Source: Macrobrachium rosenbergii
Taxonomy: Eukaryota; Arthropoda; Malacostraca; Decapoda; Palaemonidae
DNA: 64,000 nucleotides
Direction of reading: 5' to 3'
Assembly: GCF_040412425.1 (NCBI RefSeq)
Contig: NC_089795.1
Span: 86,232,730-86,296,729, forward strand
Below the pieces are notes generated by a model. That model was not told the origin of the DNA. It ran no database searches and saw only the letters and a list, made by a program, of their open reading frames with translations. The position numbers were made by a program, and so were the translations under genes. Numbering within the stretch: position 1 is the stretch's first letter; every line of letters begins with the position of its first letter. This document shows positions 1 to 46,700 of this stretch, piece after piece.

Positions 1-3000
1 CTCTGTTTCTTCGAACTTTCTGAGGTAGTATTCATAATCTTCAGAATCTGTACAGTCTGAGAGGAAGTATTCATCGTCATGAATATCTGTATACATGTGG
101 TGTCTTGGGATATCACGAACCACTGGCAGTCTGTTTTTCTTCGGTTTAGTAGCATTTACTGCTGGGGCAGTCGATTTTTTTATTGGTCTTAATTTGTCTG
201 CACAATTTGTTTCCTTTGGTTTTGTAATATTCTTTCCCCTTCTTTTACTAATGGGTTTGTCATGAACCACTGGCAGAATGTTTTTCTTTTGTTTAGTAGC
301 TTTTACTTCTGGGTCAGTTGAATTTACAACCAAGGTATTTTTCTTTTTGATTTTAATTTGTCTGCATAGTTTGTTTCCTTTGATTCTGGAATCCTCTTTC
401 CATTTGTTTATTCATTGGGATTTCACCAACTGCTGGCAGAATGTTTTCGTTTTGTTTGGTAACTTTTACTGCTGGTTCTGCTGATTTTGCAACTAAGGCA
501 TTCTTTCTTGTTGACTTAAATTTGGCTGTATAATGTGTTTCCTTTGATTTTGGAAGCGTCGTTCTCATTCGTTCACTCGGGGGTTTCACTCTTTTATTAC
601 GCCAAATAAACCTCGACATTTTGTCAGTGGTGTATAGATGTCCCTCGTAATCACATGTCCTGCATCTCTTCTGGAGTGTATCCACTGCTTCCTGTGAATA
701 GCAAAATATTACCCTCAAAAGTTTCTCCTTATTTTTATGTTTCAATATGCAGACACTTCCCTACTCACAAACATTCAACAGATACAGAAAAATGGGAATG
801 CAAATTAGAATTGTGTTCACAGCACTCACCTTTGCCACCTGTAAGTTCAGATTTTATTTTGCGTGCCTGTTCTGTACATACAGTACTGCATGTACAGTGT
901 ATTGTGTTTTAGGATGAAAAAACATACAGTACTGTACTGTATAGATTTTATGTACTTAAATGGGCATGAAGAGTACAGTAACCAACTTACAAAAAGTCCA
1001 ATATACAAATGGCCTTCCGGAACATAACTCGTTTGTGAGTAGGGTGGTGTCTGCACTTCAGTTCTAATAAAGACACTTATCAGACAGTAATAGCCAAGTT
1101 GTCACTTGAATGCTTTGTGACACTAGAATTGAAACCATAGCTCTTGAATTATGTTGGCAGCAACACCCCACTTTTCCCCTAACAAAAACAACAGAGCCTG
1201 ACCATTTTTTAAGTCCAGTATTCCTGAACATTGAGTTAAACTGTAAAAAACCCATAATTGAAATTTTTAATTAAAAGATATGCACTTACATTTGCACTCA
1301 GAGCAGTTCTCTTTTCACATTTAGGACAGAGGACAAACTTGTGGCAGAAATCCTTGAGCAGTTGGTGCAGCTTCTTTGTCCCATGAAGCCCATGGACAAT
1401 GACTCTACCTTTCTTTTTGTAAATTATTGTTCCAAGTTTGTAGGAAAAATATTTCATTATATCTGAAACAGAAAACCAACTGGTGTGAATGATTGAATCA
1501 TGAAATTTAGGCTATAATACAAAGCAATGGGGTACTTCCAGCCATTCAGCTCTGAGGAGCAAAAAGGAGGCACTTGAGTGATTGGACAGCAAGATAATAG
1601 AGATCCGGAAAATAAATGAGATGACGTACAAGTAACTAAAGGTGAAACTGGGAGGAAAACCCACTTAAGAGGTAACAGTCTGAGAGGTTGAATTGCAAGA
1701 TGGGAAAAAAAACTATTGGAGGCAGTACTGGAGATCTAAAACTATAAAAGGCTAAAATTAGAGTCATCAAGAATTTAGATCATGGCACTGAGAAAAGGGA
1801 TTATACACAGTAAGAAACTTTGGGGCATTTTTATCTTGTTCAGTAGTGCCTACACTGCATCACATAGGTACGCTGACACCAATAACCCCTTCAGGGAACA
1901 TGATGTGAACCGTGGTGTGTTTCACAATCAATCAGTCAGTCCCTGTGGTCCATAGGGGACACACTGAACCTATACTAATGCTCTCCACGAATGGCTATCC
2001 CATGTTCTCTGCCTTAGGTCATCTCAACAATCCTCTCCTGCATCCATCTTCATTGTTTTCTGCCATGCTCTTATAGGCCTACCCCACCCATGCTTTACCC
2101 TAAGAAGGGTTCAGTAATATTGCCATGATTATGTACTGTAACTCAAAATTTCTAGACAAAACTAATCTGTAGATTATCCTTTTATTCTCATTAAAGTAAT
2201 TGTGAAGATATTTCTCCTTCCAAACAGTACAGTATTCTTATTTTGTTTACCCTTTGGTAGTAACATTTATTATTCTTAAATGAATACTATTTTCTGTTTT
2301 AAGGAAAAGCCTCACAGTTGCCTTATACACCTATACAGAAGCCTGGTGTATAGGTGCATATCCTGCACACACTCACTCTCCATAATGTTAATGTCCTTCA
2401 CTTCTAACGCTTCTGCCACTACTGTATATTTATATTACTTCTTAGACATCCTATTCCCCTTTCCTTCTAAGACTTCCAAACTCTATAATCAGTATCCCAA
2501 TGTATTCTACAGTTCAACCCCTTGTTTTACATCAATGTGAATATTTGTTAATACATTTTGTATTAATTTCTCTCACTTTTAACCACCGCAGGTTTGATTC
2601 TGATCTTTGTTGTCTGCAATTCACTGACTTGCAAACATCAGAATGTTGATGCAGATATTATCTGAAACTAACATTCTGTGAACTAAACTAACCAAACTTA
2701 GCTTGATGTGGCCTGTCTCCTTTCCTAGCCATTCCTCTCACTGTAGTACAGTTCTAAGCATCAGTGACCACAGCTGTTGTGATGCTGATTTGTTGAACTA
2801 AATCAATCAATAAAACTCATTTTGATAACATACACATTTGACTTCATTGTAGTCAACAATAATTCACTTCCATTTTCCCATGTTTCAGTTTTGTATATTT
2901 TTTTTTTTTTTTAATGATCCCCAAACAAATCGCTCCTTTAAACCATTTTTTGCTTAAACTTCTTTTATCACTTACATCTTTTCAGTAATTATTTTCTAAA

Positions 3001-3967
3001 CATTTCATTAATTATAGTCTAATTTTCCTTACCTACCCCCACTCTTTTATTTTTTCTTACATCAGGCTTCCTTCTACACTGGAAACTCACTTTAAACAAT
3101 CTTCATTTCTCTTGCTAATCCTCTCCCATCCCACCATTTCAACACCAGCTACTAACTTCCTCGTCCTTACACACCTGTCTCCACTGACACCTAAGCCATA
3201 AACCTTTCCTCCTCCATAGAGACTGTTTTCTGTTCTCATTTTTTCCCTACAACCTAATAAATCTCACAAACTTCAGCCATGTCAACACCTCATCTATCAG
3301 TTTAACCATCCATCTTCTCTGTACTGGTAAAAGTTTTTAATACATTCCTGCTTTAACTTTCTTCTGCCCCTCACAATCATGCAGACAGAATAACCTGATT
3401 AAGTAATCCATTTTTTTTCTCATTCATCAGCAATGTACTTTACATCTTGAAAATCGATAGCAGTCTGCATATAACTTGAGAAATGTGTTTTGCATATTCC
3501 AAACTGATAACAGTTTTACATGATTGAATGCTGACAAAAGCTTTACAACAAACAAAGCCAAAGGCAGTTGAAAATACCTTACCATAGAATTACCACAGCC
3601 GAGATAGGAGTTGTAACCAGCTCCCTGGATTTACAAACCAAAAATGCAGAGAATAAGATTGTGCAAATAAATATCAAGAACGGGCAAATAAATATTAAGA
3701 ATGAGTAAAATTTTAGTTGTCATTCAAATAAACATGAAAATGGTGATATTGCTATACTGTATTGCTGTTTGGCTAAATGAGTTAACTTGCAAACATTGCA
3801 ACTTGAAAACTTACATATCAGAGGGTGGCCTAATGCCCTAGAAACAGCATCCAAGTTTAAAATGCGAGTCTGCAGTCTCGACTTTGCCATCACCTCGGTA
3901 AGTATGTGTGGAACCTTTACCCTGGACTTCTTTTCATAGTCCTGAGTGCAGTCATCACCTCTTGCAT
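1..3967 (-). CDS. eIF5 N-terminal domain / Gag-like fusion gene, copy A (3' end beyond window)
   Basis: Minus-strand gene with three recognisable coding exons: 3967-3815, 1462-1290 and 691 to the left window edge. All junctions have AG/GT signals, and the phases match copy B. Exon 1 begins at an ATG with A at -3. Exons 1 and 2 and the start of exon 3 encode an eIF5-type domain ending in two CxxC zinc pairs (CPKC and CRTC). Exon 3 then continues in the same frame into a basic Lys-rich linker. The acidic and Gag-like parts seen in copy B lie mostly to the left of the window. Two single-base losses relative to copy B break the frame: one in exon 1 (around 3,952) and one in exon 3 (around 397). 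The zinc-ribbon part of exon 3 is intact here but broken in copy B. It may be a pseudogene, or a gene with assembly indels. Confidence 0.6.
1530..1910 (-). repeat. SINE-like dispersed repeat, diverged, in intron 2-1 of copy A gene
   Basis: This stretch contains the run 'gccattcag ... gaggaaaac ... agtagtgcctacactgcatcac ... gctgacacc' seen in clearer form at 54,665-54,975. It is shared with copy B at 17,515-17,870, so it predates the duplication. It lies in the 2.35-kb first intron of the eIF5/Gag gene. Confidence 0.5.
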
Positions 3968-6900
3968 ACTTGCCCAAGAGCAATTTGCCCATCAACCTTT
4001 CAATTGAGAAAAGCAAGATATTTTACTACTTTCACTCTGATACTGTAAGAGAAAAGAACAAAAGGTTATGCAAACCCAATGCCCTTTTTAAACTCAGGTT
4101 TGAAAAACAAAAAAAAAAAGAGGAGGAAGAATACAGGTTTGAAAAATGGTAAACCTGCCTTTTACAGAACAACTATTATAAGTAAGGGACAAAAGGATGG
4201 GTATGAGAATTCCAAAGAATGTTATTTGAGGAAAAATGAAACCTACTGAATCGTGTAACCAAAATGCTGTTCTATGATGATTACTGATATTATTGCATTC
4301 TTGATTTTCCATCATTAAGGCTATGATTTGTGACAATGAATCTGGATGAAAACAAATCAAAGAATATTTTGCAGGATGCCAATGGATTAAATCTTGAAAT
4401 GTCACTAATGGTTTATGAATATTCTTATCCACTGGTAGGTACTATTTCAGATTCTAATAGTGTTTAAGGAATAACATGTAATTAATTTAAATTAAATAAT
4501 GTACAAATTAAAAGTGATTCTTGGGTAATGAGTTTGATGCAGTAACAATAACACAAAGAACCATTTGATGATTTGTTAAAACTTTTATCTGACAGCCTTG
4601 ATACTGCAGGCAGCTGTATGGAACATTCTCTAAGAATACCTTTGCAAAACTGATTAAAACTTGTGTAAAATTATTGGTCTGGCGAAATTTGAGTATTAAA
4701 TAACAATAATGGAAAGTAAAATATCAAACATTATTTCAGAAACTGTACACTGGTTTTGATACACTGATGACATATTTTGTAGCTGGCTGTGTAACAATTA
4801 TCAAATGAAAATGGACTATTTACCATATGGGAAATATCTCTTGAAAATACCAAGATATAAAGAAGAATAAAGAGTTCAAATGTAGGATTACAAAAACACA
4901 ATATTCATTCTATAATATATAATACACAAGATATATACAAGTTCGTGATAATGTTTATAAGGATTACAGACACAATCTTCTATTCTATAATATTATAATT
5001 AAAGAAATTGTTTTATAAACAAGTCCGAGATACAGTATCCAGCATATACTTCTGTATGTTTACAACGCATGTTCTACTCTGTATATGTGAATTATATATT
5101 AAATTTAAAAAATGGCATGTATAAGAATATTTTATCTATGAAAAACTCAGTAAAAATGAGGTTTACTTTGTTTTCATTAAAAGTATACATTAAAAGTAAT
5201 TTTCTAGGATCATAGATATAAACTTTTCCGGTTTACGTGATTTTCACACAGGTTTTGTCTTTATAGGCTATACTGTATTTTGGGTGAAAACAAGACATCC
5301 AACAATAATCATATCTAGGTCAGTTTTGTATTAGTGTTTTTAAAAACATATTGTCAGTTTAAAACTTTTTTTCAAAGTATACAATTAACTGATTATCTTA
5401 TCTTAATGGGGTTATCCAGTTCAATGGTGATTTGTCACTTTTAAATACTGCCTGTTTATATTTTATTGCTCCAGAAATTACACCTTATAAAAGTTTTTGC
5501 ATCATGCTTTACTGTATTCCCCTTATTGAAAGATAATAAGAAGTGCCCTAATGCACTTTTGCAGTCTTCTCACTTTTGTCTCATATGTTACTGACAAATA
5601 ATATAAAATCTTAATGACAAAACCAATACAATTAAAGTAACTTAAACACTGATGTAGTAGTCACTAGTCAGGTATTGTATTCCTCTGTTTGTATCCAGTA
5701 GCCACGCGAGCCATAAGTTTATGACATCATGGACACATGAATTTGCGTACTTCGCTTGATACGCTCTTCTAAAATGAGCACCCCCAACAGGACCAAGTTG
5801 GATTTTTATCTGTACACAGGTGTATACTAATGGTTCTTCTTCTTTTGAATGACTTTGTCTCAACTTGCTTATCTGTCAGCATATGAGAGTGGCAGTAATC
5901 ATATTCTTGGGAGGTCCTTTTCTTGAGGCAGAGAGACAAACCCTGTTTTCAATGCATAAACATTAGTTAACAAGCAGTTAGCAACTAACTTGTCAAGCCA
6001 AAGGAAGGTACAGTACTGGCAACTGTCCATATTATGAGAAATGGCATTTTGTTTTCCACATTAAATTTCACTTCACTTGAATATGATTAAAAGTATTGAA
6101 TTACAGCTATGGTCAAATACCTCTTGGCATGAGGTAATTCCTAAACATCAGTAATTTGCTGGAATGTGTTCTGCCCTAATTTGATTAGTGGTCATATTAA
6201 GGTGAAAAATTTGTCAAACTGCCCAAAGTGTTTACTGTTAACCTTGCATGTCAGTCTTAAATTATGGTTACAGTTTTCAACACTGTAAATTGATAAGCCA
6301 GGCTGTGGCACCAGATCTCAATAGCCTAACTATCCATTTAGGATATGGTTATAGGCTAGTCAAATACTAGTCGAAAATAAGACAGATAAAAATGACTATC
6401 AAAACAGGCTAAACCCTAACGGTTTAGATTGTTCCAGATACAGTTAGTGCCAGTTATTGTTTCTGCTTTATGAGCAAAATAGTCTATCACAAAACTTTTC
6501 TATGGAAGCTCAGGGTAAATAAGAATTTTTTACCTAAGTCATAAACCACATATTTATCTGATACTTATATTAAAATTTATGTATTTTTTCTAATCACTTG
6601 AGCAAACATTTATTTTTGTGTTTTCCTTCCTCCTATATCAAATTATTACAGTGGGACCACAGTGGGAAACCAGTGGCTTTTGGGTGGGGGTAAGCCACAC
6701 TGCATGAATGAAAAGGATTGGTAAAAACAAATGTGTAAATTATAAGTATGGGAAAAATCCATGCCTTATGTCTAACATCTGACCAGTAACAATCACAAAG
6801 TAAATTGTAATGGAAAACATTTTGGCCAGGACAATTACAGGGATACGTTCTAAGTTAACCTACGGTGCTGGATCTTATCTGACTGGAACCCCCTTTGACT

Positions 6901-8490
6901 TAGCCTAACAGTTTTTGCTTGCTTTACATTGCTACTGGAGTATGTGTGTGGCGTAAGGTAAAGTTTTGTGTGCAGTGGTCCAGTAATTCTTTGAGTGGGC
7001 TACCATTATCAAACGTTTTCTTTGTTTCACTTCATATTACGTCATTTAACACTTCTTAAATTTCATTGTTTCCTCTTAAAACTTCAAATAACTTCATGTA
7101 AAAGTTTCACTTGAACTACTTAAGAATACATTTGTACTTAATATTACGACACATCCATATTTGTAACTGAGGTCAGGAGGCCAATAATGATAGAAGGCTG
7201 GACAGTCCAAAAATATTTGGGGCCTTTACCTGGAGAACTATTGCATTACAGAAACAGTAACAAATTGCACAGTTGGTACAGTGTATCACATGCACTAGGC
7301 TATAAATGCTAAAGTATTCCTAACATTGTCACCATGACAAGTACCATCAAATACTTGTGAAATATTAATACAGTACCAAAGTACCATTTTATATAAGGTT
7401 AAACTTGATAAATCACAGTATGCTTAGCCCATGAAATTTTAATTGAATCCCATCTGCAGATTGGCTTAAGTTTGAAGTTCCCCCTTTGTCAGGTTAAAAT
7501 ACACCAGGGCTTCAGTTAGATGCAGGTAATGGCAGTAATACATAAAGTTAGGGTTATACTATAAGACAGCACTTTAGTTTAGTACCAAGTGGTTGAATGA
7601 TGGTCATTTTGGTGTATTTCCATAAGGTACATATAGGCCTTGGGAGGTTTTGCTGAAGCTGTTCCAAGTTCTTGGATATTGGGAGGTTGTAGGCACTTCT
7701 AGTACATACGCTATTTTGGATCGCTCATGGGAGCTTTTATGTGTTTCTTACCTAATAATTACCCACCTTTTCCAGTCAATTAACACTTTAGAAAATCTTA
7801 TGCTTAAGTTCTGGGCATTTTTTAACTCCTCTCAGTATGCCTTCTGCATAAGAAGCATTGACAGGAACTTCACTGATATATTTTAAATTATACATAAATA
7901 AAGTACCCTTTACCCATTTGAAGTAAAGTAATCTCACAGACAAATGTTTCTCTGCCACAAAACCTTGGCTGAAAGAACTGATTATCAGGATTCGGAATGA
8001 AGTGAGGAAATGTGCCCCCACCAAGGTAGGAAATATGATCTTTTTCACTTCATGCCCTAGGTCAGGTTAGGATAGGGGCTCAAGTAAGAGTTCAGCACCC
8101 TAGGTTAAGATAGGATGCATCCCTATGTTTTACTTTGTGACTTTTATGGTGCTTTAGGTTGGTTTAGTTTGGTTAGGATGCATCTCTGTAACTGTTCTTA
8201 CCGTATTTTCATGCTTTATAAACTGTTTTTGGTGATAACTTAATGATAATACTGATTTGGGATATAAATGAAATGTATTTTACATTTCATGCAAAACTGT
8301 TTTTGGTGATAATTTGATAATCTGATATACTGCATTTGGGATTTGGGATGATAAAATCTTTAAATGTCTTCATCTTTACATACATTACCGACCCTCAAAA
8401 TCTTCCTTTAAAACAACGTAATTCTTTGTTCACATTTATTAGCAGCCGATGTAATGAGATTTGAAAGATGTCATTGCCCGTCTGCTAGTA
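3968..8490. other. No gene recognised (duplicated, AT-rich)
   Basis: No open frame here is preserved between copies A and B. Differences are spread over all codon positions, and the longest shared frame (5,642-5,863, minus) shows no synonymous bias. The stretch probably holds upstream intron or 5' flank of the eIF5/Gag gene. A short imperfect direct repeat around 'actgtttttggtgataa' occurs at about 8,221-8,335. Confidence 0.5.
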
Positions 8491-8758
8491 CATTATGTAC
8501 AGTAATCAAACTACCATAAAGTTTGAAAGTTCACGGAGACCAAAATTATTTATATTGGGAGTTAAATGCTTTAGTTCATTTAATCATAGCGGTTCCGAGA
8601 GGCGTCCATGTTTGTTTGTTTACAAGTATCAGCTGATTCCTGTCTTCACGTCGTTCAAGGCCAACCAAAACTGTCATGAATCACTGATACAACTGAATGT
8701 CATGGTATGAGACCCACTTGAAAACACCCAGGAGTAATGAGTAATAATGCGAAGGAGA

Positions 8759-9094
8759 TTAAGAAATATAATAAATAACGAGAAGATGAAATTCATCACA
8801 CAACACGAACCGTCTGCCACTGAATTTCCAGCTGCATTTTCGTCCTTCCCAAGAGGACCGTCGTCGATATCTTTCCTTTTGCTCACAAAGGCTTCTTTTC
8901 GCTTTTCCTTTCATATACGTTTTGTAGCGGAGGTGACCGTAGAAACTGTAAGGTCGCTCTGTCAGCAACTTGAAGACTCTGGGACCAAAAGTCAAGCGAA
9001 TATGACTCGTGTGTCGTGAAACAGCGATGCGATCGCTTCTCATTTGCCTGTTGACAAACGCGTAGTTGGATACAATACACCTCCCCAGGCTCAC
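8759..9094 (-). other. Conserved ORF block, copy A (possible 5' exon)
   Basis: A 111-codon frame on the minus strand is the counterpart of 24,315-24,551. The shared part includes 'PYSFYGHLRYK' and 'RYRRRSSWEGRKCSWKFSG'. Between copies several changes are synonymous (for example CGG/CGC and GGA/GGG in the Arg-rich stretch), and the block is better preserved than its surroundings. I do not recognise the protein. It lies about 4.8 kb upstream of the eIF5/Gag start on the same strand, so it could be an upstream exon, a 5' UTR or a separate small gene. Confidence 0.3.
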
Positions 9095-9128
9095 CTACGT
9101 CTCGCGTACCGAACGTGACGTACCACTG

Positions 9129-9488
9129 CAGGGGCGTCAATTTTGCGGGGGGAGCACTTGCCCCCTCAATGCACTAATTCCCGCCCCCCTCGCAAAAAAA
9201 AAACTTGGTTTGTTCCCTAGCCTGTGAAACATATAATATAATATGTGGTTGGGTGTGGCACACCTGTTTGCTGCTTTATTAACTCAGTACAGCTCTTATA
9301 TGGCTTCAAAATTCCCCAAAATGCGCACAAATTTCTATACATTTCTTTGGGGGGCTTACGGCGCCTCTTCTACCCCGCCCCTGATAGGGCTCGTTTCGCT
9401 CGCTACCCCGCCCATACCATAAGTTCTAAACCTTTTGCCCCCCTCCCCCATAATAAACACAACAGAAAAATCTGAAATGACGCCACTG
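9129..9488. mobile_element. hAT-like MITE present only in copy A
   Basis: The ends are imperfect inverted repeats: CAGGGGCGTC on the left and GACGCCACTG on the right. Flanks CGTACCACTG and CTTACCAGTG look like a target duplication of 8 to 10 bp that has since diverged. Copy B has a single CTTACCAGTG at this place (about 26,098-26,107), which is the empty site. The 360-bp element is rich in C and G runs and encodes nothing recognisable. Confidence 0.7.
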
Positions 9489-10300
9489 CTTACCAGTGCA
9501 AGTTTGAAAAACAAAAACAATATCGTCATTTTGCATATTCATGATGTATAACACTCGTATATGCATAACTTGGTAATTTTCCTGTTGATGCTGTATTCAT
9601 AATAAACACGCAGTTCATGACAGTGAATCGATTTGACTTGATGAATTCATGAACGGTGTCGATAAGGCGGGGAAGTCATCCAAGTATCGGAGGAGATATG
9701 ATTATCGAACTCGTATACGAAACGTATTCTGTCTGAAGGGTTACTCGAGGAGAAGAGCCCACTATTTCACCTGTGGGTCCAGTTTAAAATTATAAGAATT
9801 TTTAGTTATCTTCTTTTAGTGTAGATACTTGCTCAGAGTAACTGGTCAACTGAAATCCACCTTCACCTTCGAAAATCATTTTAAAATGGCGATGGAAATT
9901 CAGGTTTTAATTTTTAATGGATTTTTGTTTATTGACAATGTCAGTCCTTTACCCCAGTAGGTAACCATGCTATTATAGTCTGTGTAAGATGTTTGGGCAA
10001 AATAACGCCCGTTGTGACTTTTTTATATAAATAAGTCGACGCCAAGCTATGGAGCAACATTCAGTTGACAATCTCAACAGTTTCTTCACAGATGCAGTTC
10101 TTTAAGGAACGCACAGTCAACTTGAGAACAAATAGAATGTGTGAATGCTTAGTCTTATTGGAGACACATATCGCATGTCGATTGATATTGATGATTGATC
10201 TTGATCTAAAATAGTATGAACACTCTCGGACCAAAAAAACGTAGACCAGGGTAAATATTACAAAAACTCGCAGCTTCAAAATAAAGATTATATACATACA

Positions 10301-10402
<102 letters not shown>

Positions 10403-10429
10403 TTCAAATTGAGGTGCTTCTTATATTTT

Positions 10430-11560
10430 ACAAATGTCTTTCAGTGTTTTCTCGTTAGTATCGTAGCTCCTGCAGAATAGGAGAATCTGTAGTTCGTTTT
10501 AAAATTTGCCTTCTTTTATGATCTTTACTTCAGGCGGTATTTTATTGTATAGTCTTTATGATCTTTACTTCAGGCGGTATTTTGTTGTATAGTCTCGGTG
10601 CACGTTGTACAAATGCTCTCTCGCCCGACTTACAATTTATTCTAGGTTCAAATAACCTATATGCTTCACTTGCATGTCTGATTACAATATTATTTCAGGT
10701 CTAAAGAAGCTTAAGCAGTTTCTCATTTATCTTGGTTCATCATATATTAGCGCTTTAAAGGCTGTAAATAGTAGGCCTATTTTATATTCTCTTCTAGCTT
10801 TTACTGGGAGCCAATGTAGCTCAATTTATAGTGCTGGGGTTATTCTAACACGGGAGCGTAGTCCTTTTTATTAATCTAGCTGCTCTATTTTGTACGCCTT
10901 GCAATGTTCTTAGTAGTAGTTAGGGAGACCGTAGTATATAACGTTGCAGTAGTCAAGCCTCGAAAGTATTTAGTTGTCAGAGTATCTTCGTTTAGGCATT
11001 TTCTAATAAATGCAATGTTTCTAATATGATAGTTACAGGTTTTGTAATATGCAATATATGGTTCTTCATCGACAATTTATTATCAATAAATACTCCTAAG
11101 TTCTTCACTGCTGCTACAATACTTATTGTTGACGAACCAATAGTTATTCATTTGAAATGTTCATATTTTCGTAGTGCACTGTCAGATCCAAATAGCATAC
11201 ACTCAGTTTTGTCTTAAGTTTCAATTTCTTTCGCCGACATCCCTTTTTCTATATCTTTCATTATTGCATCAGTTTTATTAATGGAGTCGTCTACTGTTTC
11301 TACAGGAAAATAGAACTGAGTATCCGCAGCATACTGTTTCTACTTAACCTTGTGCTCATTTAGAATTCTAGATAGTTCAGTTTTGTAAATGCCAAATAGC
11401 AGTGGGCCCAGAACGCTGCCTTGGGGCACTCCTTTTGTTAGACCATTCTTTTCTGATTTCACATTTGATATAACCAATGTAGCCTTCCTATTTTCTAAGT
11501 AGCTTCTGTACCATTTGTGTAGGCCTACATCATCTTCGATGCCTTCTCTGTAAGTAGTAT
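10430..11560 (-). mobile_element. LINE relic, reverse transcriptase 3' half
   Basis: On the minus strand, frame fragments read as a reverse transcriptase. There is an RT block with 'WYRSYLENRK' at about 11,500, then 'KGVPQGSVLGPLLF' at about 11,430-11,390, a damaged catalytic box reading YAADTQ where YADDTQ is expected (about 11,330), then 'LDYCNVIYYGLP' (about 10,950) and a C-terminal 'ERAFVQRAPRLYNKIP' (about 10,600). Stops and frameshifts show that it is dead. The clade is not clear; CR1/L2-like elements share these C-terminal motifs. It is absent from copy B, so it either inserted after the duplication or was lost from B. Confidence 0.85.
10515..10594. repeat. 40-bp tandem duplication inside the LINE relic
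   Basis: Two adjacent units, each starting at 'tttatgatctttacttcagg', differ by one base. They repeat the segment encoding the 'YNKIPPEV' region of the relic. Confidence 0.9.
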
Positions 11561-11575
11561 ATTGTTAACTTGAAT

Positions 11576-11768
11576 GTAAACAGCTTTCCTGCAGGTATTT
11601 ATTTGACTTAAGATACGTATGCTAATAATCGTATGCCTGAAATGAATGGCCAAAATCGAACTTGACTTGAAATGCTTGCAAACTGTTTTGGTAGGCTGCC
11701 ATTCATTTCATGTATACCGGTTATTAGCATACGTAAGTAAAATAAAAATCTTCAGGAAAGTTGTTTAC
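11576..11768. mobile_element. Foldback (inverted-repeat) element, copy A
   Basis: Outer arms begin 'gtaaacagctttcctgcagg' and end 'cttcaggaaagttgtttac'. They extend inward over about 60 bp, including 'gtatgctaata' and its complement. Only the central part is unpaired. The copy at 27,174-27,360 shows that it predates the segmental duplication. Confidence 0.75.
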
Positions 11769-12139
11769 CTAAAAGTTAACATTGCGCTTTTACAGTTCCA
11801 CACCTGTGAAGAAACCTGAGAGATTGTTAACCTATAATACCGTGTTGCGCCATGGCTCGGCGTCTCTCTTCTTCTTCAAACCCGTGTTGAAAGGCGTGCT
11901 GTGCTAGAGTGTTGCTTGTCTTTATGGGGAAAAAATATATTTTTTTATCTCGCATGTTATTGAGAACCCTTTGTCACTGTGGACACATTTCGTGAGCTAC
12001 AAGACTTTGAGATATATATATCTATATTTTTTTCTGTCATTCTTACCAAAAACATTATCATAATTTATTTACGGGTTTTTTCTCTGTAATATTATTTGTG
12101 TGTATGTATAGGTTAACTAAACCATTTAAAAAAAAAATT

Positions 12140-12311
12140 CTGCATACGATCTGGAGAAAAAATCTGCATACGATCCGGAGTAAAAAAATTCTGCATACGA
12201 TCCGGAGTAAAAACAAATTCTGCATACGATCCGGAGAAAAAAACTGCATACGATCCGGAGTAAAAAAATCCTGCATACGATCCGGAGTAAAAAAATTCTG
12301 CCTACGATCCG
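12140..12311. repeat. Minisatellite, about 7 units of 24-29 bp
   Basis: Units start 'ctgcatacgatccggagtaa' followed by an A-rich spacer of variable length. Copy B has a single related unit (about 27,773-27,800). The array therefore grew in copy A after the duplication, or collapsed in B. Confidence 0.9.
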
Positions 12312-12949
12312 AGTTACAAGCGATTGTAAATATAATCAGGATCAAGCTTTCCGTGCAGTTAAAACTTGATTTGTTTCAAGTCATGTTGAATTTAATCTTG
12401 AGGGAAATCTGATATGTAGAGACTTTATGTGATATGCGCATCAGTTCGACGTCTAAATGATTTGCGAGAGAAAATCGTGCACTTTTATGAAATGCGATGC
12501 GAGTCTAAATCGTGCACTTTTATGAAATGCGATGTTAGACTCACAACAAATTATTGGGGAGTGAGCTTCTATAAAAAAATAAAGCCAACACATCTGTGAG
12601 TGAGTTAGCCCAGCCAGAAGTTGTGTTGAACACCTGTTTTTTTCTTTTCTTATTGTTTTTAGAAGTGCACGGAAATGGCCGAGACTTGACACTACATTTT
12701 TTTCACACACGCACTGTGAAGGCAGAGGGTACTACTGTAAACATCCACTCTCCCTCGTAGTTTTGACAAGTTGACGAAGCGTAAAAAAATAAAAAAACAA
12801 ATTTATAGCCTACACCAGAAAGGTTCTTTTCACAATTTTCAATGTCAAAGTCTTTTATCCTATATTAAAAAAAAATACAATGAGATGCCTAAAAAAAAGG
12901 GGACCCATGCAAAACTCTCCGTAGGTGTGGCAAGGCCAGCAGCCATCAG

Positions 12950-13170
12950 TGAACCTCCGCCCGGTGCATGTATGCATTACTTACGGTTCTTTACAGCGTT
13001 CCTTCGGCCCCTAGCTGCAACCCCTGTCATTCCTTTTACTGTACCTCTGTTCATATTCTCTTTCTTCCATCTTACTTTCCGCCCTGTCCTAACAGAGCTG
13101 CTTAGTAGTGCTATTTCGAGGTTTTTCTCCTTTTACACCTTTCAAACCTTTTTCTTTCAGTTCCTTTGAG
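12950..13170 (+). repeat. SINE-like dispersed repeat, truncated, at end of copy A
   Basis: Contains 'ccttcggcccctagctgcaa', then 'cattccttttactgtacctc', and ends near 'cacctttcaaaccttttt'. It matches 28,660-28,920 directly and 54,665-54,975 in reverse. The duplication match stops inside it. Confidence 0.7.
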
Positions 13171-14565: not shown

Positions 14566-14587
14566 TCCGAATTTTATGCCATTGCTT

Positions 14588-14743
14588 GGCTATGCTTCTG
14601 TCAGCTGTAATGTATCGATCAGATCTGGCTATGCTTCTGTCAGCTGTAATGTATCGATCAGATCTGGCTATGCTTCTGTCAGCTGTAATGTATCGATCAG
14701 ATCTGGCTATGCTTCTGTCAGCTGTAATGTATCGATCAGATCA
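14588..14743. repeat. 39-bp minisatellite, four units
   Basis: Four units starting ggctatgcttctgtcagctg repeat with an exact 39-bp period. The last unit diverges at its end, where the stop codon of the eIF5/Gag gene lies (14,736-14,738). The array therefore sits at the CDS/3' UTR boundary. The plus-strand open frame through it is a shadow of the repeat. Confidence 0.95.
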
Positions 14744-17700
14744 AGTATAAGTATTTCTTGCGCTTTCTGGCTGGCTGTGGTGTTGGTTTGATAACTTGTT
14801 CTGCAAGGGCTATTGTATTTTTTGTTCCTGCTTCTTCTGCTCTGTTGTTGTTCTCCATGGTCAGTTGCATTTCTTGGTTTTGCTTCATTTTTTCTACTAC
14901 AGGCATGACATCTTGTTGTTCTCCATGGTCAGTTGTATTTTTTATTCCGGCTTCTACTTTGCTGTTGTTCTCAATGGATGGATGGATGCATTCATGATAT
15001 CTACGGCAGAAGTCCAGCCACCATTCAGCGGTCAGTTGCTGTCTTTGTTTTTTCCTCTTGATTTTCACTACAGGTATGATATCTTGTTTTCCTGGCGCAG
15101 TTGTATTTTTGGTTCTTGCTTCTTCTACTTTCTTGTTCTCCACGGTTAGTAGTGTTTTCTGTTTTTGCTCTGCACTTTCAACTACAGGTACAACTTGTTG
15201 TTCTCCGTGGTCAGTTGCGTTTTTGCACTTTGCTTTGTTCAATTTCTTGTTGCTCTTCACATTTACCTGTATATTTTCTTCTTTCTTCTTTCTTTGTGCT
15301 TCTTGTTTGATAGTTTTTTGTTGTTTTGTTGTTATATTTTTTCCTTCTGCTCCTTCACTTTGTAAATCTAGCATGATAACTTCTAGATGTTCTCCATGGT
15401 CAGTTCTATCTTTTATTCTTGCTTCTTGTTCTTTATATTTCTGACATGATCTGTTCCCTGTAATGTGTGGTCCCTTGCAAAGGAAGCATGTTGATGTCTC
15501 TGAATTACAGTCTCTTAGCCAGTGTCCTTTCCACATTTTGGGCATACAAGTTCTCCTCTACATTGGCCAAGCTTATGTCCAAATTTCTGGCATTTAGTGC
15601 ATCGTATAACATGGTATCTGTCATATACTTTGCAAAACTTTTCATCGCCAAACTTATCGAGAATATACAGCTTGTCACCACGTGCTGCTACATTCCTTCT
15701 TATTTTTGGTGAGCACTTTATGATGTAACCTGGCCTTCCCTTGGCGTCAGCTTGCACAGTTGCAACCTTTTTGAAGTCATCTTCATCTTTTATCAGATAC
15801 CTTAGCCATGGGTTCTTGTTTTTTATATTTTCTATGACATCCTCTTCTTTCACATCTTCTGGGACTCTACTTATCATGATTTTGGGGATCAATTTTCTAT
15901 TCTCACAAGCTGCAGTGTTACTTTCTACAACTGGTAACGCTTCACTTTCTTCAAACTTTTGGAAGCAACACTCATAATCGTCAGACTCTGTTTCTTCGAA
16001 CTTTCTGAGGTAGTATTCATAATCTTCAGAATCTGTACAGTCTGAGAGGAAGTATTCATCGTCATGAATATCTGTATACACGTGGTGTCTTGGGATATCA
16101 CGAACCACTGGCAGTCTGTTTCTCTTCGGTCTAGTAGCATTTACTGCTGGGGCAGTCGATTTTTTTCGTCTTAATTTGTCTGCACGGTTTGTTTCCTTTG
16201 GTTTTGTAATATTCTTTCCCCTTCTTTTACTAATGGGTACTGTGCGAACCACTGGCAGAATGTTTTTCTTTTGTTTAGTAGCTTTTACTTCTGGGTCAGT
16301 TGAATTTACATCCAAGGTATTTTTCTTTTTCGATTTTAATTTGTCTGCATAGTTTGTTTCCTTTGATTCTGGAATCCTCTTTCCAATTTGTTTATTCATT
16401 GGGATTTCACCAACTGCTGGCAGAATGTTTTCGTTTTGTTTGGTAACTTTTACTGCTGGTTCTGCTGATTTTGCAACTAAGGCATTCTTTCTTGTTGACT
16501 TAAATTTGGCTGTATAATGTGTTTCCTTTGATTTTGGAAGCGTCGTTCTCATTCGTTCACTCGGGGGTTTCACTCTTTTATTACGCCAAATAAACCTCGA
16601 CATTTTGTCAGTGGTGTATAGATGTCCTCGTAATCACATGTCCTGCATCTCTTCTGGAGTGTATCCACTGCTTCCTGTGAATAGCAAAATATTACCCTCA
16701 AAAGTTTCTCCTCATTTTTATGTTTCAATATGCAGACACTTCCCTACTCACAAACATTCAACAGATACAGAAAAATGGGAATGCAAATTAGAATTGTGTT
16801 CACAGCACTCACCTTGCCACCTGTAAGTTCAGATTTTATTTTGTGTGCCTGTTCTGTACATACAGTACTGCATGTACAGTGTATTGTGTTTTAGGATGAA
16901 AAAACATACAGTACTGTACTGTATAGATTTTATGTACTTAAATGGGCATGAAGAGTACAGTAACCAACTTACAAAAAGTCCAATATACAAATGGCCTTCC
17001 GGAACATAACTCGTTTGTGAGTAGGGCGGTGTCTGCACTTCAGTTCTAATAAAGACACTCATCAGACAGTAATAGCCAAGTTGTCACTTGAATGCTTTGT
17101 GACACTAGAATTGAAACCATAACTCTTGAATTATGTTGGCAGCAACACCCCACTTTTCCCCTAACAAAAACAACAGAGCCTGACCATTTTTTAAGTCAAG
17201 TATTCCTGAACATTTAGTTAAACTGTAAAAAAAAACCCATACTTAAAATTTTTTAATTAAAACATTTGCACTTACATTTGCACTCAGAGCAGTTCTTTTT
17301 TCACATTTAGGACAGAGGACAAACTTGTGGCAGAAATCCTTGAGCAGTTGGTGCAGCTTCTTTGTCCTATGAAGCCCATGGACGATGACTCTACCATTCT
17401 TTTTGTAAATTATTGTTCCAAGTTTGTATGAAAAATATTTCATTATATCTGAAACAGAAAACCAAATGGTGTGAATGATGAATCATGAAATTTAGGCTAT
17501 AATACAAAGCAAATGGGGTACTTCCAGCCATTCAGCTCTGAAGGGCAAAAGGAGGCACTTGAGTGATTGGACAGCAAGATAATAGAGATCTGGAAAATAA
17601 ATGAGATGACGTACAAGTAACTAAAGGTGAAACTGGGAGGAAAACCCACTTAAGAGGTAACAGTCTGAGAGGTTGAATTGCAAGATGGGAAAAAAACGGA

Positions 17701-19947
17701 GGCAGTACTGGAGGTCTAAGTATAAAAGGCTAAAATTAGAGTGAATTTAGAGGCTGAAAGGGATGTGCCGAAGAAACTTTGGTGCATTTTTTACTTGTTT
17801 AGTAGTGCCTACACTGCATCACATGGGTACACTGACACCAATATTCCCTTCAGGGAACATGATGTGAACCGTGTTGTGTTCCACAATCAATCAGTCAGTC
17901 CCTGTGGTCCATAGGGGACACACTGAACCTATATTAATACTCTCCACAAATGGCTATCCCATGTTCTCTGCCTTAGGTCATCTCAACAATCCTCTCCTGC
18001 ATCTATCGTCATTGTTTTCTGCCATGCTCTTATAGGCCTACCCCACCCATGCTTTTACCCTCAGAAGGGTTCAGTAATATTGCCATGATTATGTACTGTA
18101 ACTCAAAATTTCTAGACAAAACTAATCTGTAGATTATCCTTTTATTCTCGTTAAAAGTAATCGTGAAGATATTTCTCCTTCCAAACAGTACAGTATTCTT
18201 ATTTTGTTTACCCTTTGGTAGTAACACTTTATTCTTAAATGAATACTATTTTCTGTTTTAAGGAAAAGCCTCACAGTTGCCTTATACACCTATACAGAAG
18301 CCAGGTGTATAGGTGCATATCTTGCACACACTCACTCTCCATAATGTTAATGTCCTTCAATTCTAACGCTTCTGCCACTACTGTATATTTATATATTACT
18401 TCTTAGACATCCTATTCCCCTTTCCTTCTAAGACTTCCAAACTCTATAACCAGTATCCCAATGTATTCTACAGTTCAACCCCTTGTTTTACATCAATGTG
18501 AATATTGTTACTACATTCTGTATTAATTTCTCTCACTTTTAACCACCGCAGGTTTGGATTCTGATCTTTGTTGTCTGCAATTCACTGACTTGCAAACATC
18601 AGAATGTTGATGCAGATATTATCTGAAACTAACATTCTGTGAACTAAACTAACCCAAACTTAGCTATGATGTGGCCTGTCTCCCTTTCCTAGCCATTCCT
18701 CTCACTGTAGTACAGTATTCTAAGCATCAGTGACCACAGCTGTTGTGATGCTGATTTGTTGAACTAAATCAATCAATAAAACTCATTTCGATAACATACA
18801 CATTTGACTTCATTGTAGTCAACAATAATTCACTTCCATTTTCCCATGTTTCAGTTTTGCCTTTTTTTTTTTTTTTTTTTTTTTAATGATCCCCCAAACA
18901 AATCGCTCCCTTTAAACCATTTTTTGCTTAAACTTCTTTCATCACTCACATCTTTTCAGCGATTATTTTCTAAACATTTCATTAATTATAGTCTAATTTT
19001 CCTTACCTACCCCACTCTTTTATTTTTTCCTTACATCAGGCTTCCTTCTACACTGGAAACTCACTTCAAACAATCTTCATTTCTCTTGCTAATCCTCTCC
19101 CATCCCACCAACTCAACACCAGCTTCTTAACTTCCTCGTCCTTACACACCTGTCTCCACTGACACCTAAGCCATAAACCTTTCCTCCTCCATAGAGCCTG
19201 TTTTCTGTTCTCATTTTTTCCCTACAACCTAATAAATCTCACAAACTTCAGCCATGTCAACACCTCATCTATCAGTTTAACCATCCATCTTCTCTATACT
19301 GGTAAAAGTTTTTATGTAATTACATTCCTGCTTTAACTTTCTTCTGCGCCTCGTAATCATGCAGACGGAATAACCTGATTAAGTAATCCATTTTTTTTCT
19401 CATTCATCAGCAATGTACTTGACATCTTGAAAATCGATAGCAGTCTGCATATGACTTGAGAATGTGTTTTGCGTATTCCAAACTGATTACAGTCTTACAT
19501 GATTCAATGCTGACAATAGCTTTACAACAAACAAAGCCAAAGGCAGTTGAAAATACCTTACCATAGAATTACCACAGCCGAGATAGGAGTTGTAACCAGC
19601 TCCCTGGATTTACAAACCAAAAATGCAGAGAATAAGATTGTGCAAATAAATATCAAGAAAGGGCAAATAAATATTAAGAATTAGTAAAATTTTAGTTGTC
19701 ATTCAAATAAACATGAAAATGGTGATATTGCTATACTGTATTGCTGTTTGGCTAAATGAGTTAACTTGCAAACATTGCAACTTGAAAACTTACATATCAG
19801 AGGGTGGCCTAATGCCCTAGAAACAGCATCCAAGTTTAAAATGCGAGTCTGCAGTCTCGACTTTGCCATCACCTCGGTAAGTATGTGTGGAACCTTTACC
19901 CTGGACTTCTTTCCATAGTCCTCGAGTGCAGTCATCACCTCTTGCAT
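14736..19947 (-). CDS. eIF5 N-terminal domain / Gag-like CCHC fusion gene, copy B
   Basis: Three exons: 19947-19794, 17448-17276 and 16674-14736, with AG/GT junctions (phases 1 and 0). They would give about 755 residues if two missing bases are allowed for. Residues 1-141 match eIF5: the Arg15 arginine-finger position is kept (R16, in 'SRVKVP'), the Lys33 position is Gln, and Lys55 is kept ('MKYF'). Zinc Cys lie at 97/100 and 119/122 with 'KFVLCPKCE'. Residues 155-304 are three about 50-residue basic repeats and 313-355 are acidic. Residues 369-483 resemble the PRE_C2HC plus CCHC region of jockey-type ORF1, with knuckle C468/C471/H476/C481. Two more knuckles follow, then Lys/Glu-rich repeats. 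The eIF5 C-terminal HEAT domain is absent and no RT follows. One G appears lost from a GGG at about 16,626 and another at about 15,524. Role unknown; RNA or initiation-complex binding is inference. Confidence 0.75.
17515..17870 (-). repeat. SINE-like dispersed repeat, copy B counterpart
   Basis: Counterpart of 1,530-1,910, in the first intron of the copy B gene, with several small deletions. Confidence 0.5.
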
Positions 19948-20810
19948 ACTTGCCCAAGGAGCAATTTGCCCATCAACCTTTCAATTGAGAAAAGCAAGAT
20001 ATTTTACTACTTTCACTCTGATACTGTAAGAGAAAAGAACAAAAGGTTATGCAACCCAATGCCCTTTTTTAAACTCAGGTTTGAGAAACAAAAAAAAAAA
20101 AAGAGGGAAGAAGAATACAGCTCAACCAGGGAAAAATGGTAAAACCTGCCTTTTTACAAAACAACTATTATAAGTAAGGGACAAAAGAATGGGTATGAGA
20201 ATTCCAAAGAATGTTATTTGAGGGAGGAAAAACTACTGTACTGAATCGTGTAACCAAAATGCTATTCTATGATGATTACTGATATTATTGCATTCTTAAT
20301 TCTCCATCATTAGGGCTATGATTTGTGACAATGAATCTGGATGAAAACAAATCAAAGAATATTTTGCAGGATGCCAATGGATTAAATCTTGAAATGTCAC
20401 TAATGGTTTATGAATATTCTTATCCACTGGCAGGCACTATTTCAGATTCTAATAGTGTATAAGGAATAACATAGAATTAGTATTTAAATTAAATAATGTA
20501 CAAATTAAAAGTGATTCTTGGGTAATGAGTTTGATGCAATAACAATAAAACAAAAGAACCATTTGATGATTTGTTAAAACTTTTATCTGACTGCCTTGAT
20601 ACTGTAGCAGGCAGCTGTATAGACCATTCTCTAAGAATACCTTTGCAAAACTGATTAAAACTTGTGTAAAAGATTGTAAATTTGAATTCAATTGGAAAAA
20701 TTACTTTCAAATTGTACACTGGTTTAGATACACTGATGACATATTTTGTAGCTGGCTGTGTAACAATTATCAAATGAAAATGGACTATATAGAGATATCT
20801 CTTGAAAATA

Positions 20811-20938
20811 CCAAGATATATACAAGATATGCACAGGATTACAGACACAATCTTCTATTCTATAATATATAATACCAAGATATATACAAGATATGCACAG
20901 GATTACAGACACAATCTTCTATTCTATAATATATAATT
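20811..20938. repeat. 64-bp tandem duplication
   Basis: Two adjacent, essentially identical units starting 'ccaagatatatacaagatat'. Copy A does not carry the second unit, so it arose after the segmental duplication. Confidence 0.9.
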
Positions 20939-28659: not shown

Positions 28660-29010
28660 TACGGGAGTTAGCGACTTAGCGTGAGTTAGCGCCGTTAGTG
28701 CACCCCACACTCGGGCCTATGTAGGCGTTACTTAAGGTTCTTTGCAGCGTCCCTTCGGCCCCTAACTGCAGGCCCTTTCATTCCTTTCACTATACCTCCG
28801 TTCATAGTTTATTTCTTCCATCTCACTTTCTACCTTCTCCTAACAATGGCTTCATTAGCTTTATTATGCAACTGCGAGGTTTTCCTGCTGTTACACCTTT
28901 CAAACCTTTTTACTTTCAGTGTCCTTTTCAGCACTGAATGACTTCATAGACCCCAGCGCTTGGCCTTCGGCCCAAATTTTGTATTCCATTCCATTCCCAT
29001 GAAAACGTGC
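28660..29010 (+). repeat. SINE-like dispersed repeat, fuller copy
   Basis: Contains 'cccttcggcccctaactgca', 'gcaactgcgaggttttcctg', 'cacctttcaaacctttttac', then 'ccccagcgcttggccttcgg', and ends in 'attccattccattcc'. Other copies are at 12,950, 54,665 (reverse) and 55,185 (reverse). The end of the segmental duplication falls within it. Confidence 0.75.
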
Positions 29011-43700: not shown

Positions 43701-46700
43701 GAACTGAAAAAAAAATTAAATAACGCCATTACTGGAATTAATAAGTGAACTCCAGTAAGTGAACATAATGATAATAACTGAAGAGAAGGCATATGAACAC
43801 CAGGCCTACTTCTTGGTGGAGTGATTTACATAACCAGTGGCTTACTTGCTTCAAGAGAGATGGTAGACTAAACTTCCATGCTGGAAGCTTATGCTTATTT
43901 CAGTAATAATTACTATTCTGTCTCAACAGATAAAATACTGAGGCTTGTATTAAAGTATGAACACATTTTTTTAAATCCAGTGATACTGCTTATGTTTCGA
44001 GCTAATAAAAAAATAAAAAGGACTTCTGAAGAAAATGTTTCAAATTTATGTTATAGAAACCAGCAGCTTTCAGAGGCTTTACGAATTCAAACTTAGGGGG
44101 TAAAGTGAATTTCTGCAAGTGGCTAAAATTAAATGGCTTCAGTCTTACCAGTATACCACTCTTCATTTCATTGAGAACCTCTGGATCACAGTCCCGGTAT
44201 TTCTGGATGTCTCCTAACAGTTCATTCTTTTTGGCTTCCAACAATGCAAGACGTTCAAGAATCTCTTCACGATCTTCACCTTCCTCCCGGCCAACCTAAC
44301 AAAGAATTGTTACCAATTTCAAAACATGGTTTTATGGTCACAAATACTGGATCAAATGATTTTATGGTAAGCTTACAAATTTTGCAAGAAATTTTTAGTG
44401 CACAAGCAGCATTTGGTGTAAGAATATTTAGACAGTTAAAATGCTTTTTATTAATTGAGTGAATGATTCAATTTAATTTTTGTTATTCTTAACACGGAGT
44501 CAAGCTTATCCTGACGTGACATCCACACTGAACATAATGCAATTTTATTCTCATTAAAAATTACTTCACAACTCTACAACCCTTACATGTTACCTATGAA
44601 AAGTCTTCAGTTTACTTTTATAAAGAAACTAGAATTCTTTATGCTACCTGGGTTGAATGAGCTGTCTTTACACTAATGAACATATTTTTAAGACTTATTC
44701 TGTTTATTTAATTTTAATAATTTACACATAGTGTAATAACAAGATTAAATGATTTTATCACGGTAATGCAGTTTCAGTTGCAAATTTTGAATATTTTTCT
44801 GTGGCCTGTAAAGTTATCACACTGTGCTGATAGATAGTTACAGAATGGAAGAATCAGCACATGGCACAAACAGTTAAAACCAATTGGTAATTTATGCAAT
44901 TTTTACATTAGGTTTTTTTATATCAATTAACACAAAAATTTAACTACTTCAATTCACTGAACAGCAGTTTTCCTTCTCAGTAATACTGTACTTTTCGTAA
45001 AGTAAACAGCATTGCATCTTGGTGATAGCACGTGATAATGGAAACCTGTTAAGAAATATTCTTTAAAATGCTTTGCACACCTGTATACAGTAGTAAAATA
45101 CATTACCTTGGCTGCTTCTAATTTTGTCTGGGCTGTTTCGAGTCTTTTGTTTGAATCCTGAAGACGAGCTCGAAGTTCTTCAATTTTCTTCGTACGTGTG
45201 CTGAGTGCTTTGCTAAGGTGGTAATGAAAAATTTTGATAATTAAAAGTTATGAGTGAGGTGGTATCAATTATATATTCTGGTTATGTGCTAAAACCTATT
45301 AAAGAATTTTACCAGAAAGTCATTACAATTCTCAGTTTTGCTAATTCATAGCATCTCAAATGAGCTGTTACATCCAAACCCACTAACATGGCAATTCCCT
45401 AAGATAACTGATAATACAGATCTGAGGATACAGTTCTTGGGATGCTCATTTGTGCCATATTTTGAAGATGCAATGTGTCCACACTGTAACTAGTGTCAAC
45501 AAATTATAGGGCCCAGACAAAACTGTTCCCTTTTGTTGCCTTATTCTATGAGCATCCTGACTTTCTACTTCATCCTATGGTTTCACTGTGAAAAGATCTT
45601 ACAGCTGTCTTTTCCTCTGCACTTTCCCTTTGTGAACCGCCAGATATTGTCGTCCTTACATCTTCAGCAATTCCTCAGGTCATGATCCTTGTGACACCAA
45701 CGTCATTATTTACCAATTTCAGTGTTATGTGAAACATATAACCCTTACCTTATTCCACTTCCTATTACGTAAGGTCAAACTATACAAGATCTGTCTTTAG
45801 CAAACGAAACATAAATAACAACCATTCCCTGCCATAATACAATATTCCATTATGATTACATGGCCAGGGTAATTTCTTCATTTTCAAGCTCCTACTTTCA
45901 GTATTTAGATAAGTTACTTGAGATTACTATTCGCGCCTCCTGCAGTGCATATATTTCCATGCTGCACATCAGAAATGAACAGTAAGTAATGTAATAGCAT
46001 ATCATGGATGTAGAAGTATGCTATAGGTAAATTATCTGAACAAAACCTTAAGATTTATGTCAGATACTGTATATCCATCCGTCTACGGAGTATTATTCTC
46101 ATAGCTGTCAAGGTTCTTCATACTCCCCTGCTCTTGATATATCTGTATCTAAGGGTTTCCATCTGATAAATAATCCACCTTATAATCCCCACTATTGTCC
46201 ACTTCAGCTTTGTGGTTAAGTCGCATGTTTATAGATATATTTTGGGTATTAAGTGTCAAGAACCTGGTTTTAAGCTGCTTTAAACACTTAGCCTTGCACA
46301 AGTCGGGCTGTGAAATCCTGCAAAGAAAGATTGTTTCCTTGGTTTTATTCTATCCTTTCTTCAACTAAGTTAGGAGTGTACTGAGGGAGACGTGCTTTAT
46401 ACTTAACAAAGGTGGGCTAGATAATCTAAGTCTAGTTGTTTACATAGCTGATAATCTAACAGGACTCTGTTTAAGCCTGTTTCTTCTGCCTCTTGCTAAT
46501 AAGATTCCTATACTATGATGAAACAAATGATTCCAGATAGCTTAATAGCAGCTGCGAATGATACTTTGATTTTCTCTTCGGACCTTTTTCTGGCTTTGTC
46601 CACCAAAAGAACAAGGCTCATGTCATGATGGCAAGTAAGGTAGTTACAGGACCCATCAATAAGGGCATCGGGTACAATTTTGAAGTGGCAGATACAGGAT

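Follow-up and report, generated by a model that had tools for sequence, protein, structure and literature searches.

A candidate family of chimeric genes joining an eIF5 N-terminal domain to a LINE ORF1 tail in Macrobrachium rosenbergii

Can a domain of a translation initiation factor and the RNA-binding portion of a protein encoded by a retrotransposon have become one host gene? This question is raised by a locus at positions 14736..19947 of a 64,000-nucleotide stretch of Macrobrachium rosenbergii DNA, referred to here as the window. An initial annotation had read this locus, hereafter copy 2, as a single gene encoding the N-terminal domain (NTD) of eIF5 followed by a Gag-like protein with CCHC zinc knuckles. 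Both domains and their join were observed in this analysis, the join being in frame in other copies and the named copy carrying frameshifts. As far as our searches show, these loci form an undescribed family of fusion genes. We consider it reasonably probable that they are a small host chimeric-gene family of M. rosenbergii, in which a duplicate of eIF5 carries the tail of a long interspersed nuclear element (LINE) open reading frame 1 (ORF1) protein, with control of ribonucleoproteins (RNPs) or of LINEs as the likeliest role.

The eIF5-like half

All parts of the fusion genes lie on the minus strand, and the exon borders of copy 2 are of the GT/AG type (Table 1). The PF01873 profile, proposed by the initial annotation as a check, matched both window copies well beyond chance, with E values of 6.4e-18 (copy 1) and 8.7e-19 (copy 2). 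Residues 20-131 of copy 1 align to positions 6-115 of the 117-position profile (65.2 bits, cut-off 27), and human eIF5 (2e9h) matches copy 1 with an E value of 6.1e-21. The profile match and the exon borders confirm the annotated layout, in which the eIF5 NTD occupies two exons and the start of a third. The canonical eIF5 of the species, P0026, is reported from other contigs and shares 34% identity with the fusion NTD; for comparison, ten other named malacostracan eIF5s, among the matches listed, are 82-88% identical to the Hyalella query.

Conservation was assessed against 25 canonical eIF5s, hand-picked among the species-named rows in the best 120 of 6350 matches, with some such rows left unused. 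The fusion NTD keeps 30 of the 70 positions that are invariant in this set and has lost 40. Retained features include Arg15, Lys17, Lys28, Lys55, Gly62, Arg73, His80, the four zinc cysteines and the fold signature. According to the available part of PMC6298780, Lys24, Gly27, Arg28, Gly29, Asn30 and Gly31 of hairpin 1 contact initiator tRNA in the yeast 48S complex, as do Lys71 and Arg73 of hairpin 2; Asn30 also contacts the codon, and Arg15 is required for the GTPase-activating protein (GAP) activity of eIF5. Hairpin 1 of the fusion NTD carries the changes K24E, G27A, G29S, N30R and K33Q and a gap at G31, and all five test residues of beta-hairpin 1 (K24, G27, G29, N30 and G31) differ, while the position of yeast Arg28, a Lys in prawn eIF5, is kept. 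Because hairpin 1 is not conserved, a normal start-codon role for the fusion NTD is unlikely. Contact with eIF2 is possible, given the retention of Arg15, Lys55 and the fold signature. The earlier suggestion that the protein docks on initiation complexes is weakened by the unconserved hairpin 1, although Arg15 is retained.

The C-terminal domain of eIF5 (PF02020) was sought by tblastn of two decapod C-terminal halves against the window, and the best match (60879-60965, E 0.054) was unconvincing. The fusion could not be placed in an NTD tree with the 25 canonical eIF5s, where its branch measured about 10 changes per site. At ten malacostracan-typical columns, the fusion shows the malacostracan state in four, a state seen elsewhere in one and neither in five, which is a weak hint.

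The join in the window copies and in a third copy

At the annotated locus, the two halves are not read in one frame. The spliced eIF5 frame of copy 2 comes to an end at 143 residues. The Gag frame begins at 16633, preceded by a TGA, and runs to its stop at 15515. Judged against copy 1 and against two further proteins, P0001 and P0002, copy 2 contains two breaks: a one-base deletion at 16626-16627, where GAGGACATC corresponds to GAGGGACATC in copy 1, and a second missing G at 15526-15527, which splits knuckle 2 and has no counterpart in P0001 or P0002. The single chimeric protein initially proposed for this locus is thus interrupted at both places, neither of which the initial annotation had noted. 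Exon 3 does run into the RRM and CCHC region as annotated, although not as one frame in this copy. At both breaks GGGACA is read as GGACA, an identical event in an identical context that may reflect a systematic error of sequencing or assembly. The stop codon of the Gag tail and the sequence immediately past it are covered by four perfect 39-bp tandem repeats (14587-14742).

Self-comparison of the window revealed a tandem duplication that was absent from the initial annotation, and its first unit contains copy 1. The spliced product of copy 1 begins with MGKLLLGK and comprises the whole NTD and the zinc ribbon, followed by the Gag linker, in frame at the join; in this assembly it lacks a single open frame owing to indels near 402 and 347. 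Outside the window, copy 1 is most likely continued by P0001, a protein with three knuckles. Positions 96-1 of the window encode the first 32 residues of P0001, and the remainder lies beyond. Both window copies keep their introns, in agreement with the annotation's view that the locus is not a processed copy. The intron places are identical and kilobases of flank are duplicated with the gene, which argues for duplication at the DNA level. Between copies 1 and 2, substitutions amount to 0.65% in exon 1 (1/154), 2.9% in exon 2 (5/172), 2.0% in exon 3 (14/686), 3.2% in intron 1 and 1.8% in intron 2, and to 11% just upstream; exon 3 is free of substitutions over its initial 289 bp. The exon 2 changes, three synonymous and two non-synonymous, are too few for a ratio of non-synonymous to synonymous rates (dN/dS). 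This pattern resembles that of an old duplication whose gene body has recently undergone gene conversion. Two perfect 64-bp tandem copies (20807-20937) are located upstream of exon 1 of the second unit, and a repeat of about 200 bp, probably a dispersed element, occurs on both strands at 12969-13162, 28719-28927 and 54727-54957.

P0002 is an M. rosenbergii protein of 537 residues, named by NCBI as uncharacterized and belonging to a cluster of three member sequences. A single frame spans exons 2 and 3 together with the linker, RRM and knuckles, and the exon 2/exon 3 join is identical to that predicted for copy 2. Copy 1 and P0002 therefore show an in-frame join of eIF5 NTD and Gag as proposed by the initial annotation, but this join is broken in the copy for which it was proposed. 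The P0002 gene appears to lie on the same chromosome as the window copies. A published M. rosenbergii assembly, perhaps a different one, has 59 chromosomes (available part of PMC11373640), so that sharing of one chromosome by chance is unlikely.

All 90 residues of the eIF5 part are identical between P0002 and copy 1, for which gene conversion may be the cause. Compared with P0001, P0002 is identical at 23/39 residues of the last linker part, 77/93 of the RRM, 56/62 of the knuckles and 43/47 of the tail start. For copy 2, the comparison used P0003, the window-encoded protein that begins at the first ATG of the open frame 15515-16633, and gave identities of 148/202 in the linker, 76/93 in the RRM and 26/32 in the knuckles. 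The fused frame thus persists through 77 changes in 327 residues. If every changed residue is counted as a single base change, the non-coding rates of the locus predict about 13 to 21 frameshifting indels alongside these changes; none was observed in P0002 up to the end of the knuckles, two in copy 2 and two in copy 1. We infer that the fused frame was maintained for long, and the breaks in the window copies look recent.

Taken literally, copy 2 would instead represent two separate genes, a 143-residue eIF5-like protein with the NTD alone and a nearby LINE Gag frame, which never formed a fusion protein. We regard this as most improbable, given that the zinc ribbon reads directly into the Gag frame in copy 1 and P0002. 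Moreover, the eIF5 frame of copy 2 after the deletion (DIYTPLTKC) loses its match to eIF5, whereas the Gag-frame reading (GHLYTTDKMSRFIWRNK) extends that match up to FI..N.

Table 1 Fusion-gene parts and tandem duplication units in the window
Feature	Position	Strand	Remarks
Copy 2 exon 1	19794..19947	-	Start of eIF5 NTD, Arg15 equivalent; donor GTAAGT
Copy 2 exon 2	17276..17448	-	eIF5 NTD core and first Cys pair of zinc ribbon (CPKC); acceptor TTTCAG, donor GTAAGT
Copy 2 exon 3 start	16570..16674	-	Second Cys pair of zinc ribbon (CRTC); eIF5 frame ends at TGA 16572-16570
Copy 2 GG run (GGG in copy 1)	16626..16627	-	One-base deletion parting eIF5 and Gag frames; from copy alignment
Copy 2 Gag open frame	15515..16633	-	Basic linker, acidic patch, RRM, knuckle 1, start of knuckle 2
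Copy 2 linker	16162..16539	-	165-bp (55-residue) tandem units, 2.3 copies
Copy 2 acidic patch, tyrosine-rich	15947..16081	-	From sequence
Copy 2 RRM-like domain	15611..15889	-	Beta-alpha-beta-beta-alpha-beta; predicted fold
Copy 2 CCHC knuckle 1	15560..15601	-	C-x2-C-x4-H-x4-C
Copy 2 CCHC knuckle 2	15507..15544	-	C-x2-C-x3-H-x4-C in P0001; here across two frames
Copy 2 CCHC knuckle 3	15444..15488	-	C-x2-C-x3-H-x6-C
Copy 2 tail open frame	14736..15557	-	End of knuckle 2, knuckle 3, repetitive TDHG-rich tail
Copy 1 exon 1	3815..3992	-	Starts MGKLLLGK...; different start via two one-base differences from copy 2
Copy 1 exon 2	1290..1462	-	Spliced model
Copy 1 exon 3	1..691	-	Truncated by window start; in-frame passage from zinc ribbon to Gag linker; single-base indels at about 402 and 347
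Tandem duplication, first unit	1..13167		Window self-comparison
Tandem duplication, second unit	15986..28927		Gene body 92% alike over 5.7 kb; ten chained blocks beyond, 77-90%

Other frames were also noted in the window. On the plus strand, the open frame 57511-57951 matches the C-terminal domain of Lon protease (PF05362) below threshold (E 0.0011; 19 bits against a cut-off of 21.1). Two exon-like charged frames on the minus strand (44005-44295 and 44957-45247) gave no Pfam match for the first and weak ones for the second; they may be reminiscent of the coiled-coil protein MND1.

The ORF1-like half

The RNA recognition motif (RRM) piece, modeled alone, folds well, with blocks of predicted local distance difference test (pLDDT) values of 83-93 across its residues 11-90, and Foldseek returned no match for it at E <= 0.001. 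The whole of P0002 gave a poor fold (mean pLDDT 47.9), whose Foldseek matches all had E > 0.001. P0001 and P0002 each contain three CCHC knuckles, and the Pfam family zf-CCHC_5 scored below its cut-off for the knuckle region. The closest relatives, P0004 and P0005, are 41% and 40% identical over 90% of the Gag region, and the fusion family shares with its ORF1 relatives an RIK-x2-TDHG end. Among four relatives scanned, P0004, P0006 and P0009 have PHD-like N-terminal fingers, all below the Pfam cut-off, while Pfam gave no PHD match in the window copies, P0001 or P0002; the N-terminal part of the fusion is the eIF5 NTD. PHD-bearing Type I ORF1 proteins (IC) are assigned to CR1 subgroup 3 and L2 subgroup 2 in the available part of PMC4120745. 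In place of the jockey-type label of the initial annotation, a Type I ORF1 fits better, its nearest relatives being seemingly PHD-bearing ones, a kind described for the CR1 and L2 lineages; a firm assignment to a clade would need a reverse transcriptase (RT). An origin of the linker units from the first RRM of a LINE ORF1, based on a KKNTLVVKS-like motif, was considered and rejected, as 26 of 500 shuffles (P0004) and 61 of 500 (P0005) reached the observed score.

Could the loci instead be the 5' ends of a mobile LINE family that took up the eIF5 NTD in place of a PHD finger as an ORF1 module? The PHD-like fingers of the relatives and the module shuffling described for CR1 and L2 ORF1s (PMC4120745, available part) are in line with such an exchange. 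However, no Pfam match at E 0.05, and hence no endonuclease or RT, was obtained for six downstream open frames of the minus strand, the frames in which the annotated absence of both enzymes behind the stop was examined. Identical intron places and duplicated flanking kilobases indicate duplication of DNA, and the three copies are apparently on one contig, which leaves the mobile family very unlikely. The poly(A) signal that the annotation had cited as evidence carries no weight: AATAAA occurs 179 times in the window, where shuffles predict 125.

Proposed origin and role, and known systems

The family that we favor could have arisen when a duplicated eIF5 gene retained its first coding exons, with the NTD and zinc ribbon, and lost its C-terminal domain just past the NTD. 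The RNA-binding half of a LINE ORF1, with the RRM and three CCHC knuckles, would have been acquired within the same exon. Duplication at the DNA level, introns included, would then have yielded the two tandem copies, a third being apparently present on the same contig. The predicted protein would consist of a degenerate eIF5 fold, a basic repeat linker, an acidic patch, the RRM and zinc knuckles. Its ORF1 half would bind RNA, perhaps LINE RNA, and form RNPs, and the eIF5 half might serve as a docking or scaffold domain that does not read start codons but may contact eIF2. The likeliest role would be RNP or LINE control, comparable to that of mammalian L1TD1, rather than translation initiation. 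A more specific version is that of a working decapod host protein, in which the GAP-domain fold of eIF5 has become the N-terminal part of a LINE ORF1 put to host use and ties LINE-type RNPs to the eIF2 initiation machinery, so as to silence transposon or viral RNA or to steer germline mRNAs; this we put forward tentatively, as rather unlikely.

Several observations weigh against the favored reading. Frameshifts are present in each of the window copies, at about 402 and 347 in copy 1 and within the zinc ribbon and knuckle 2 in copy 2; the genes may be broken, or the assembly in error. Exon divergence between copies 1 and 2 is about equal to intron divergence; this parity and the substitution-free start of exon 3 suggest gene conversion, which would mask selection. 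P0002 lacks exon 1, its intactness is subject to ascertainment bias in that it was found through being an intact annotated protein, and P0003 is by definition the open stretch between the two breaks of copy 2. After about residue 515, P0002 is seemingly in another frame than the window copies (a weak match, E 0.30), and constraint may be absent from the tail past the knuckles. The position of Arg73 in hairpin 2 is kept, and some tRNA contact is therefore possible. Among the proteins searched, the fusion is known from one species only.

The loci might accordingly be read as a decaying by-product, in which a LINE fragment in a redundant eIF5 duplicate happened to leave an open frame, was copied segmentally and is now decaying without function. 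The frameshifts in both window copies, the similar divergence of exons and introns, the apparent loss of the tail frame in P0002 and the 40 of 70 invariant positions missing from the NTD would all fit this explanation. On the other hand, an NTD that is 34% identical to canonical eIF5 yet retains the four zinc cysteines, Arg15 and the fold signature suggests constraint over much of its divergence, and the fused frame withstands the changes separating P0002 from copy 2. On balance, decay without function seems doubtful to us, and a host gene family is preferred.

The fusion was not found outside M. rosenbergii among species-assigned matches, either by its Gag half (9 matches among 266 candidates) or by its eIF5 half (2 among 92); the protein search requires shared five-residue words, so this absence is weak evidence. 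The database includes eIF5 of Penaeus, Cherax, Panulirus, Eriocheir, Petrolisthes and Portunus. The search of decapod proteins for both domains, which the initial annotation had recommended, thus recovered the fusion in M. rosenbergii, but in none of the other decapods with eIF5 represented. Furthermore, no described gene joining a translation initiation factor domain to a LINE ORF1 was found in the open-licence literature, in keeping with the annotation's claim of a new architecture. If expressed, the family would offer a natural test of what the eIF5 fold can do without its start-codon hairpin, and of host use of LINE ORF1 proteins outside mammals. Host genes built in part from transposons are already known; it is the combination of an initiation-factor domain with a LINE ORF1 that we did not find described.

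Among known systems, the eIF5 NTD (PF01873), as in P0026, resembles the fusion in its near-full profile match, four-Cys zinc ribbon, Arg15, Lys17 and Lys55. Unlike canonical eIF5, the fusion has an altered hairpin 1, no PF02020 domain that was found and an RNA-binding-type tail instead. The PHD subtype of Type I LINE ORF1, as presented in the available part of PMC4120745, shares the order of an RRM followed by three CCHC knuckles; the fusion has an eIF5 NTD and repeat linker where that subtype has a PHD, a coiled coil and a first RRM, and no ORF2 was found among the neighboring frames tested. Host exons are likewise combined with transposon coding sequence in F-box genes that carry a mariner helix-turn-helix domain (PMC12062965, available part; its main text mentions neither eIF5, eIF-5 nor PF01873), and Imagin of malacostracans (PMC12863088, available part) is a domesticated transposon gene in crustaceans; both involve other domains. 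L1TD1 was, as of 2014, the sole known domesticated gene derived almost wholly from LINE-1 (PMC4161310, available part). Like the predicted fusion protein, it would represent a LINE ORF1-derived protein of RNA-binding type that serves as a host gene product, which for L1TD1 is established (available parts of PMC4161310 and PMC11925450). The fusion differs from L1TD1 in that its N-terminal half is a host translation-factor domain, its ORF1 half comes from another LINE type and its host is a crustacean.

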